Shown piece after piece: positions 61,161 to 63,660 of a stretch of DNA of 64,000 bases (the stretch's first letter is position 1; every line of letters starts with the position of its first letter). The DNA comes from Thermococcus pacificus (GTDB lineage: Archaea > Methanobacteriota_B > Thermococci > Thermococcales > Thermococcaceae), in assembly GCF_002214485.1 (NCBI RefSeq), contig NZ_CP015102.1:1240001-1304000 (forward strand). The letters run 5' to 3'. The translations under genes and the position numbers were made by a program. Below the pieces are notes generated by a model. It was not told where the DNA came from. It saw nothing but the letters and a program-made list of their open reading frames with translations, and did not search any database.

Positions 61161-61245
61161 GGTTGAATATAAGGCCATCCGAAGTTATAACGCTTCCGCC
61201 CGAAAGAGTTTTATCCCCCGGTGCCAACCATGAGCGGTGGTGCAG

Positions 61246-62292
61246 ATGAGGATCGAGAAGCTCAGGGAATTTATAGCCGAGAAAGAACTCGACGGCGTTC
61301 TCATAAGGGCTCACGAGAACCTCTTCTATTTCACAGGCTCCGCACCTGTCTTGGGCGGCTACCTCGTCGTCACGCCGGACGAGGCAACCTTCATAGTTCC
61401 GGAGCTTGAATACGAAGAGGCCAAGGAAACCTCAAAGGTCCCGGTTGAAAAGTTCAAGACCGGAAAGGAGCTTTACGAGAGGCTCTCCTCCCTCAAGCTC
61501 AGGAAGCTTGGGATTGAGGGGAAGACGAGCTTCTCCACAATACAGACGCTTAAGGAGAAAGCCAACGTTGAAGATTTCACCCCCATCGATGACGTCATAA
61601 GGGAGCTCCGCATAATCAAAACCAAGGAGGAGCTGGAGGTCATCGAGGCGGCGTGTAAGATAGCCGACATGGCCATGATGGCGGCTCTGGAAGAGATAAG
61701 CGAGGGCAAGCGCGAGAGAGAAATTGCGGCCAAGATGGAGTACGTCATGAAGATGAACGGAGCGGAAAAGCCGGCTTTCGACACGATAATCGCGAGCGGA
61801 TGGCGTTCTGCTTTACCACACGGGGTAGCGAGCGACAAGAGGATAGAGAAGGGTGACTTTGTCGTCATCGATGAGGGAGCGCTTTACAGGCACTACCACT
61901 CCGACATGACGAGAACCATAGTTGTGGGCAGTCCCAACGAGAAGCAGAAGGAAATCTACGAGATTGTTCTGGAAGCCCAGAAGAAGGGCGTTGAGGCAGC
62001 GAGACCAGGAATGACCGCCAAGGAGCTCGACACCATCGTGAGGGACATCATAGCGGAGTACGGCTATGGAGACCACTTCATCCACTCCACTGGGCACGGC
62101 GTCGGCCTTGAGATACACGAGTGGCCGAGGGTTAGCCAGTTCGACGAGACCGTCCTTAAGCCCGGCATGGTGATAACGATCGAGCCTGGCATCTACCTCC
62201 CGAAGTTCGGCGGGGTTAGAATAGAGGACACCATCGTCATCACGGAGAACGGCGCCAGAAGGCTCACCAAGACGGAGAGGGAGCTTATTTAG
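61246..62292 (+). CDS. pepQ: Xaa-Pro dipeptidase (prolidase), M24B
   Basis: The 348-residue enzyme cleaves dipeptides with C-terminal proline. With the ATG at 61246 the five metal ligands fall at Asp209, Asp220, His280, Glu313 and Glu327, the same numbers as in Pyrococcus furiosus prolidase, so start and identity are firm. His284 in STGHGVG is the conserved second His. The pita-bread fold occupies about 125-345 after an N-terminal domain. It works with the oligopeptidase and M42 enzyme encoded nearby in peptide fermentation. Confidence 0.96.
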   Translation: MRIEKLREFIAEKELDGVLIRAHENLFYFTGSAPVLGGYLVVTPDEATFIVPELEYEEAKETSKVPVEKFKTGKELYERLSSLKLRKLGIEGKTSFSTIQTLKEKANVEDFTPIDDVIRELRIIKTKEELEVIEAACKIADMAMMAALEEISEGKREREIAAKMEYVMKMNGAEKPAFDTIIASGWRSALPHGVASDKRIEKGDFVVIDEGALYRHYHSDMTRTIVVGSPNEKQKEIYEIVLEAQKKGVEAARPGMTAKELDTIVRDIIAEYGYGDHFIHSTGHGVGLEIHEWPRVSQFDETVLKPGMVITIEPGIYLPKFGGVRIEDTIVITENGARRLTKTERELI

Positions 62293-62307
62293 GCCTGCAA
62301 TTAAAAA

Positions 62308-62406
62308 TTAAAAAGCATCGTCGGGCTTTAAGGTTTTCTTTTGAAGTTTTTGCCTCGCCTCGCGCTCAACGGTTATCAACCACACGTAGATCATTGGGGT
62401 CATCAT
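62308..62406 (-). CDS. Predicted 32-residue microprotein under TGM-containing promoter
   Basis: A short frame on the minus strand begins ATGATG directly after a near-perfect ribosome site, GGAGGTGATAT. The product starts with MMTPMIYVWLITVEREARQK and continues LQKKTLKPDDAF. Its first dozen residues are hydrophobic, then it turns basic and helical. A TTTTTAAAG box lies 30-40 bases upstream, giving a complete promoter, ribosome site and frame. Two exact TGM palindromes flank this promoter. I know no family. Its size is below usual annotation limits, so it may have been missed elsewhere. It could be a membrane-associated regulatory peptide, but that is speculation. Confidence 0.5.
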   Translation of the reverse strand: MMTPMIYVWLITVEREARQKLQKKTLKPDDAF

Positions 62407-62407
62407 A

Positions 62408-62424
62408 TATCACCTCCAGTGATA
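62408..62424. promoter_or_regulatory. Exact TGM palindrome over the microgene ribosome site
   Basis: TATCAC-CTCCA-GTGATA matches all 12 defined bases of the Thermococcales glycolytic motif. It lies downstream of the microgene TATA box and includes its ribosome site on the minus strand, so part of the match could come from that site. In this position TrmBL1/Tgr would repress. Confidence 0.6.
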
Positions 62425-62459
62425 CACAGATTCCACACTTTAAAAACTTTTTGCTTATG

Positions 62460-62476
62460 TATCACCACAAGTGATA
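62460..62476. promoter_or_regulatory. Exact TGM palindrome upstream of microgene and next to a rightward TATA box
   Basis: TATCAC-CACAA-GTGATA is a second full 12/12 match. It is upstream of the leftward TTTTTAAAG box (activator position) and overlaps a rightward TATAAAAA box (62474-62481) that could add a promoter for pelA. The presence of two exact sites 52 bases apart makes regulation by TrmBL1/Tgr likely. Confidence 0.7.
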
Positions 62477-62586
62477 TAAAAACAGGGATTAAACCCATGA
62501 ACTGGTCTCAGACAGGAAAAGATAAAACTCCACCCGCGTATTATCGGCAGGGCTTAAGGGTCAGGCGTAATAGTCGGGGTGATACC

Positions 62587-63660
62587 ATGCAGATAATCCA
62601 CCAGGACGTCAAAGAGGGCAAGGTGAAGGTCAAGGCTGAGACTTTGGACGACCTCTGGCATCTCTATCACATCATCGACCCTGGCGATATCGTCTACGCA
62701 AAAACCCTCCGCAAGCAGAGCCAGAGGAGCGATTCCCTAAGGGCTGAGAAGGTTGAAGTTATCCCGGTTTTCCTCGGAGTTAAAGCGGAAAAGATAAACT
62801 TTCACAAGTTCGCCAACCAGGTTCGAGTTACCGGACCGATAGTCTACGCGAGCAGGGAAGATGTTCCCCTCAGCAAGTACCACACGATAGCGATAGAGGA
62901 AGGCACTGTCGTTACGATAGAGAAGCCCCGCTGGAAGGAGCACCACATCGAAAGGCTAAAGGAAGCGGTTGAGGCCTCCAAGAGAGCAAGGGTGATGATA
63001 GTCGTCATTGACGACGGAGAAGCAGATATGGCTCTCGTCAGAGAGTACGGCGTTGAGATACTCAACAGCATACGCCACAACCTCGGCGGAAAGCGCTACA
63101 ACACCGACAGGGAAAGCGAGGAGAAGAAGTTCTTCCACGACGTGGCAAAGACGATGGAGGAAGTTATGAACCGCGAAAACGTCGAGAAAGCCATTGTGGC
63201 TGGACCTGGATTCGTAAAGGAGGACTTCTATAAGTTCCTCCAGGAGAACTACCCGGAGCTTGCAAAGAAGGTCGTTATAGAGGACACGAGCGTGACGGGA
63301 AGAACGGGCATCTACGAAGTCATCAAGCGCGGGACCGTTGAGAGGGTCTACCACGAGAACAGGGTTGCCAAGGAAGTCCAACTAGTCGAGAAGGTTTTGG
63401 AGAACATCGCAAGGAACAACGGCTTAGCGGCGTATGGTCTCAAAGAGGTGGAGGAAGCGGTAAACTACGGTGCCGTTGAGACGCTCCTCGTTCTGGACGA
63501 ACTCCTCAAAGGAGAGCACAGGGAGAAGATAGAGGAGCTGATGGACGCGGTCAGGTATTCCCGCGGTGAGGTGGTGGTTGTAAGCTCAGAGCACGAAGGC
63601 GGCGAAAAGCTGAAGGCGCTGGGAGGTCTTGCGGCCCTGCTGAGGTTCAGGGTGAAGTGA
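62587..63660 (+). CDS. pelA: Pelota (Dom34) ribosome-rescue factor
   Basis: The 357-residue protein is archaeal Pelota, which with aEF1A or ABCE1 splits stalled ribosomes. The N-terminal Sm-like domain starts MQIIHQDVKEGKVKVKAETLDDLWHLYHII-like, the central eRF1_2-type domain contains KRARVMIVVIDDGEADMALV, and the C-terminal eRF1_3-type domain ends in a conserved core (VSSEHEGGEKLKALGGLAALLR-like). The GGQ motif of release factors is absent, as expected. ATG 62587 after GGGGTGAT is the right start; the frame is open 82 codons further upstream but that stretch is promoter DNA. Confidence 0.96.
   Translation: MQIIHQDVKEGKVKVKAETLDDLWHLYHIIDPGDIVYAKTLRKQSQRSDSLRAEKVEVIPVFLGVKAEKINFHKFANQVRVTGPIVYASREDVPLSKYHTIAIEEGTVVTIEKPRWKEHHIERLKEAVEASKRARVMIVVIDDGEADMALVREYGVEILNSIRHNLGGKRYNTDRESEEKKFFHDVAKTMEEVMNRENVEKAIVAGPGFVKEDFYKFLQENYPELAKKVVIEDTSVTGRTGIYEVIKRGTVERVYHENRVAKEVQLVEKVLENIARNNGLAAYGLKEVEEAVNYGAVETLLVLDELLKGEHREKIEELMDAVRYSRGEVVVVSSEHEGGEKLKALGGLAALLRFRVK

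Follow-up and report, generated by a model that had tools for sequence, protein, structure and literature searches.

The leftward frame between pepQ and pelA in the window (the whole stretch of 64,000 nucleotides that was analysed) is very probably a real gene. This microgene of 31 codons, MTPMIYVWLITVEREARQKLQKKTLKPDDAF (62308..62403, minus strand), is narrowly distributed and, from the sites around it, probably TrmBL1-controlled with an unusual double operator. Our best reading, to which we assign a probability of about 0.72, is that of a self-contained microprotein gene of the TrmBL1 (Tgr) regulon that would be repressed by TrmBL1 and induced by sugar.

The left neighbour, pepQ (M24 Xaa-Pro dipeptidase type; 61237..62292, plus strand), is convergent with the microgene, and the right neighbour, pelA (Pelota, eRF1 domains 1-3; 62587..63660, plus strand), is divergent from it. 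The gap, given as 180 bases in the initial annotation, measures 294 bases from the pepQ stop at 62292 to the pelA start at 62587. That annotation also read a 32-codon frame behind the inner of two TGM palindromes, with a strong ribosome site inside the palindrome. The Shine-Dalgarno sequence GGAGGTGAT (62409..62417, minus strand) is present there, followed by ATGATG and the frame (62406-62308, MMTPMIYVWLITVEREARQKLQKKTLKPDDAF), but the conserved start gives 31 codons. The upstream in-frame ATG at 62406 is not conserved, being absent from two orthologues (G020 and G072), and for this reason we took the second ATG (62403) as the likely start of a 31-residue product. The stop codon TAA occupies 62310-62308, and two T5 runs at and behind it (62303..62314, minus strand) form a probable oligo-T terminator.

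A search of 94 Thermococcaceae genomes identified orthologues between pepQ and pelA in G020 (91% identical), G072 (87%) and G068 (38%), the last on the MAG contig JASGLT010000003.1 with a product of 34 residues. The residues YVWL, EREA and KP are invariant among the four orthologues. The protein gave no match in Pfam or NCBIfam, and AlphaFold, run on the single sequence, predicted one helix (residues 4-24, mean pLDDT 75), which is uninformative on function.

Comparison of the core of the frame between T. pacificus (G000) and G068 gave a pS of 0.77 and a pN of 0.32 in frame, and the relation was reversed in the other two frames. The two copies differ at 27 of 66 nucleotides with the protein pattern kept, and only 0.3% of random mutants with an equal number of changes keep as many residues without a stop codon. 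This comparison, through the frame-specific pS/pN and the mutants, is the main evidence that the frame would be translated; the protein selection test among the three close species G000, G020 and G072 alone is weak. At synonymous sites within this trio, the microgene has a mean pS of 0.17 over three pairs, whereas 31-codon stretches of pepQ have a minimum of 0.27 and a median of 0.50. Coding alone fails to explain so low a divergence, which extra nucleotide constraint or exchange of a cassette between species would explain.

As the initial annotation had stated, two TGMs that match TATCAC-N5-GTGATA at 12 of 12 positions are present in the gap. The inner TGM, TATCACCTCCAGTGATA (62408-62424, minus strand), is a predicted TrmBL1/Tgr operator, and the outer TGM, TATCACCACAAGTGATA (62460-62476, plus strand), starts 52 bp from it, leaving 35 bp between them. 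The whole genome (1,785,673 bases) has only four exact TGMs, where 0.03-0.08 would be expected by chance from base composition; the remaining two stand before genes for an alpha-amylase and a GH57 glucanotransferase. A TGM pair within about 70 bp occurs in 3 of the 94 genomes (G000, G020 and G072), always at the pepQ-pelA place and always 52 bp apart. All four species have the same TATCACTGGAGGTGATA before the start, a sequence that comprises the inner TGM and the Shine-Dalgarno site within it. G068 lacks the outer TGM; G020 and G072 retain it, G072 with two changes in the spacer and none in the 12 arm bases. Between the outer TGM and pelA (62495-62586), GATAAAACTCCACCCGCGTATTA and its neighbours are strongly conserved in the trio; no function was recognised for them.

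To score core promoters we used a BRE/TATA matrix of 16 bases, trained on 33 TGM-led genes and 32 pelA promoters of relatives, sets that exclude the window's promoter. Across both strands of the 64-kb window (127,970 positions), the leftward core promoter AAAGTTTTTAAAGTGT (62435..62450, minus strand) scored 17.2 bits and ranked second, in agreement with the earlier proposal that the TGMs bracket a leftward promoter. The inner TGM lies 10 nt downstream of this match, with 4 nt between it and the conserved start codon, and, by this placement, is at the repressor position for the microgene. The spacing from promoter match to TGM is mostly 5-9 nt in other well-matching TGM genes.

Several observations connect the microgene to sugar control. 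The genome encodes a TrmBL1 equivalog (NF047390, 667 bits against a cut-off of 650), whose gene has cyclomaltodextrinase-like and glycogen-synthase-like genes as neighbours. TGM-led genes were surveyed by scanning eight representatives and recognising the rest by near-identical N-termini. The exact TGMs checked that stand directly before full-length genes precede an alpha-amylase (GH13), a GH57 glucanotransferase, an aldehyde dehydrogenase that we read as the GAPN type, iPGM, ADP-PFK/GK, PGM/PMM and DUF2139. These are mostly enzymes of starch use, glycolysis or sugar-phosphate metabolism, which upholds the view that exact TGMs mark sugar-controlled genes. Most of these genes have the order TATA, TGM, ATG, the same as the microgene. 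All nine P. furiosus templates tested with TrmBL1 bound on the downstream side of the promoter were repressed (PMC4706686), and Tgr is released by maltotriose, TrmBL1 by maltose, maltotriose and fructose (PMC4158304). By analogy, the microgene would be off on peptides and on with maltodextrins. We strongly infer that it is regulated by sugar, and the suggestion of a sugar-responsive small protein, made in the initial annotation, has gained from the frame conserved in four species, the in-frame selection, the TGMs at sugar genes and the encoded TrmBL1.

We propose that the strong TATA box at 62439-62446 drives leftward transcription starting in or near the inner TGM, and that GGTGATA, a half-site of the TGM, also serves as ribosome-binding site for the 31-residue protein. 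In the absence of sugar, TrmBL1 on the TGM would block RNA polymerase; maltotriose or maltose would release it, and the microprotein would then be made along with amylases and glycolytic enzymes. The outer TGM, mirroring the inner one across the TATA box, would give a quasi-symmetric promoter closed both ways. As to the product, we can only guess that it is a single, partly hydrophobic helix that binds the membrane or a protein partner and adjusts how sugar is taken up or broken down. The right half-site GGTGATA is also the Shine-Dalgarno sequence of many TGM-led amylase genes, making operator and ribosome site one element there.

Among the alternatives, the one that survives best, possible although we consider it doubtful, is a truly bidirectional promoter from which the microgene (leftward) and pelA (rightward) are both sugar-controlled, TrmBL1 on the two TGMs closing both; the pelA leader would then be about 115-120 nt, starting in the outer TGM. 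Read rightward, the TATA box region, ACACTTTAAAAACTTT (62435..62450, plus strand), scores 11.9 bits (rank 15; 11.9-13.1 bits in this orientation) and is a plausible candidate promoter towards pelA. The centre of the 8-mer, 62442.5, falls on the axis of the TGM pair at 62442. Since the TATA box lies on this axis and scores both ways, each TGM is in the place for repression of one direction. The outer TGM follows the rightward match at 9 nt, a spacing like that of TGM-repressed genes, and is by its placement at the repressor position for rightward transcription and at an upstream position for the microgene. However, TATA boxes are near-symmetric anyway, and several other TGM promoters also score above 10 bits when reversed. 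We rejected a fully palindromic promoter region, because, TATA core and TGMs aside, the 35-bp stretch that separates the TGMs shows no more self-complementarity than its shuffled versions. Without such an excess, and with other TGM promoters scoring in reverse too, bidirectional use is a possibility and not a result.

The history of the pelA promoter bears on the same question. In most short-gap relatives the ancestral promoter of pelA, CAACTTTTTAAA, stands about 45 nt ahead of the gene and scores mostly 19-22 bits; G068 carries both this promoter (21.3 bits) and the microgene. The outer TGM occurs only in G000, G020 and G072, and these three species lack the promoter. Its loss in the double-TGM species makes sugar control of pelA possible in them. 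Between the outer TGM and pelA, the matrix found nothing above about 2 bits in G000 and nothing above 4 bits in G020 and G072. The correlation is based on one small group of species, and pelA may instead be read through from pepQ or have a promoter of a type missed by the matrix. Control of pelA through a rightward TATAAAAA box had been proposed initially. The letters are present at 62475, but the plus strand at or to the right of the box reaches a maximum of about 2 bits, so this box as the pelA promoter lacks matrix support, although the matrix, trained mostly on TTTTTAAA-type boxes, may undervalue TATATA-type boxes. More tentative still is the full proposal that the symmetric TATA box is locked by paired TrmBL1 operators, such that maltodextrins would switch on the microprotein and Pelota together and tie ribosome rescue to sugar supply in a few Thermococcus species.

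Somewhat less probable than the bidirectional promoter is an alternative in which the microgene is a cassette, mobile or exchanged not long ago, at a hot spot for insertions, and may already be dispensable. It would fit the patchy presence among close relatives and the low divergence in the trio. The gene is found in only 4 of the 94 genomes, a rarity that also counts against our main reading, and nowhere outside the pepQ-pelA place; a family-wide profile search of these genomes rose above noise only at the four known places, and scans of genome contigs and viral contigs with protein alignment gave no wider homologues. The frame, inner TGM, Shine-Dalgarno sequence and TATA box are conserved in four species of Thermococcaceae, but the conservation across Thermococcales that had been looked for does not hold. 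A tree of pepQ and pelA gave no clear answer on whether the four carriers are a clade. The gap receives other inserts elsewhere, such as toxin-antitoxin genes. Arguing against a mobile cassette, the place is the same in 4 of 4 species, the G068 copy is old and under selection, and there is no second copy of the cassette in any of the 94 genomes.

The pepQ-pelA gap is itself an insertion hot spot in relatives. In about ten species a ParE/RelE-like toxin gene, preceded by a small frame, stands directly before pelA; four species have an uncharacterised gene pair (68 and 135 aa), and two have a VapB-like antitoxin. In several species the toxin gene and small frame lie so close to pelA that a separate promoter would not fit, from which it appears that the driver of pelA has changed repeatedly. 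Should the toxin cleave mRNA as RelE does, its sharing a transcription unit with Pelota would be notable.

It is improbable that the leftward transcript works at the RNA level, as a small regulator or an antisense RNA, whether or not its frame is also translated, in the manner of a dual-function sugar RNA. The nucleotide conservation of the trio beyond what pepQ synonymous sites allow would suit such a role, and the RNA may run into the 3' end of pepQ. Yet no Rfam family was found, the predicted fold is no better than that of shuffles (z -0.15), and the nucleotides of G068 have diverged while the protein pattern stays. Least probable by far is that the inner TGM is merely a strong ribosome site resembling a TGM by chance: GGTGATA is the Shine-Dalgarno complement, so that half of the motif, the right one, would be expected before a start codon, a point that counts against the TrmBL1 reading, but the left half TATCAC at its fixed offset has a chance of about 1e-4 and does not vary among the four species, and there is another exact TGM at a distance of 52 bp.

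Other small frames are also led by TGMs. At least nine genomes encode, immediately after an exact TGM, a second, conserved and more widespread small protein of 47-49 residues (MLVRIVYYMNNTLPKERIVVTNDIKKAERIAREDMEKLRARGYELEWVA and relatives), and searches of Pfam and NCBIfam gave it no convincing match. At another locus, in two genomes, a 34-codon frame, MPEAVVDGSVALRWTQAEVSLREFERKVRPRWPD, follows a TGM and Shine-Dalgarno block, TATCACTRGAGGTGATA, nearly the same as that of the microgene. Its N-terminus recalls the start of PIN-domain toxins, and Pfam gave no match. We do not claim homology of the microgene to the TGM-led micro-ORF MPEAVVDGSVAL of these genomes, because the proteins align poorly although the operator/Shine-Dalgarno blocks are nearly identical.

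SgrT of E. coli is a nutrient-controlled small protein that acts on a transporter and is encoded inside a regulatory RNA. The microgene, in contrast, does not appear to sit inside a regulatory RNA, and we claim no sequence similarity to SgrT. The small protein of M. mazei that acts on ammonium transport, as outlined in PMC10714827, is likewise nutrient-controlled, a likeness that implies no sequence similarity. Among the closest known systems is the TrmBL1/Tgr regulon (P. furiosus PF0124, T. kodakarensis TK1769; PMC4158304, PMC4706686), with the same exact operator downstream of BRE/TATA near the start and with its regulator gene present here. What differs is that the target here has 31 codons and no sugar-gene neighbour, and two exact TGMs flank one TATA box, in 3 of 94 genomes only. 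Some P. furiosus targets of TrmBL1 are hypothetical genes; one of them, PF1085.1n, whose name suggests a short ORF, has TrmBL1 bound downstream of its promoter (PMC4706686, table). Bacteria and archaea also have bidirectional promoters that arise from symmetry of the sequence (Warman 2021, as cited in PMC10268837). The candidate promoter here resembles them in a quasi-symmetric core that may be readable both ways, and differs in that each direction has its own exact operator.

If our reading is true, a microprotein of about 31 residues would join an archaeal sugar regulon known mainly for enzymes and transporters. The locus would also be a natural case of a symmetric archaeal promoter that two operators shut in either direction, and it would suggest that control of the near-universal ribosome-rescue gene pelA has been rewired by insertions ahead of the gene.
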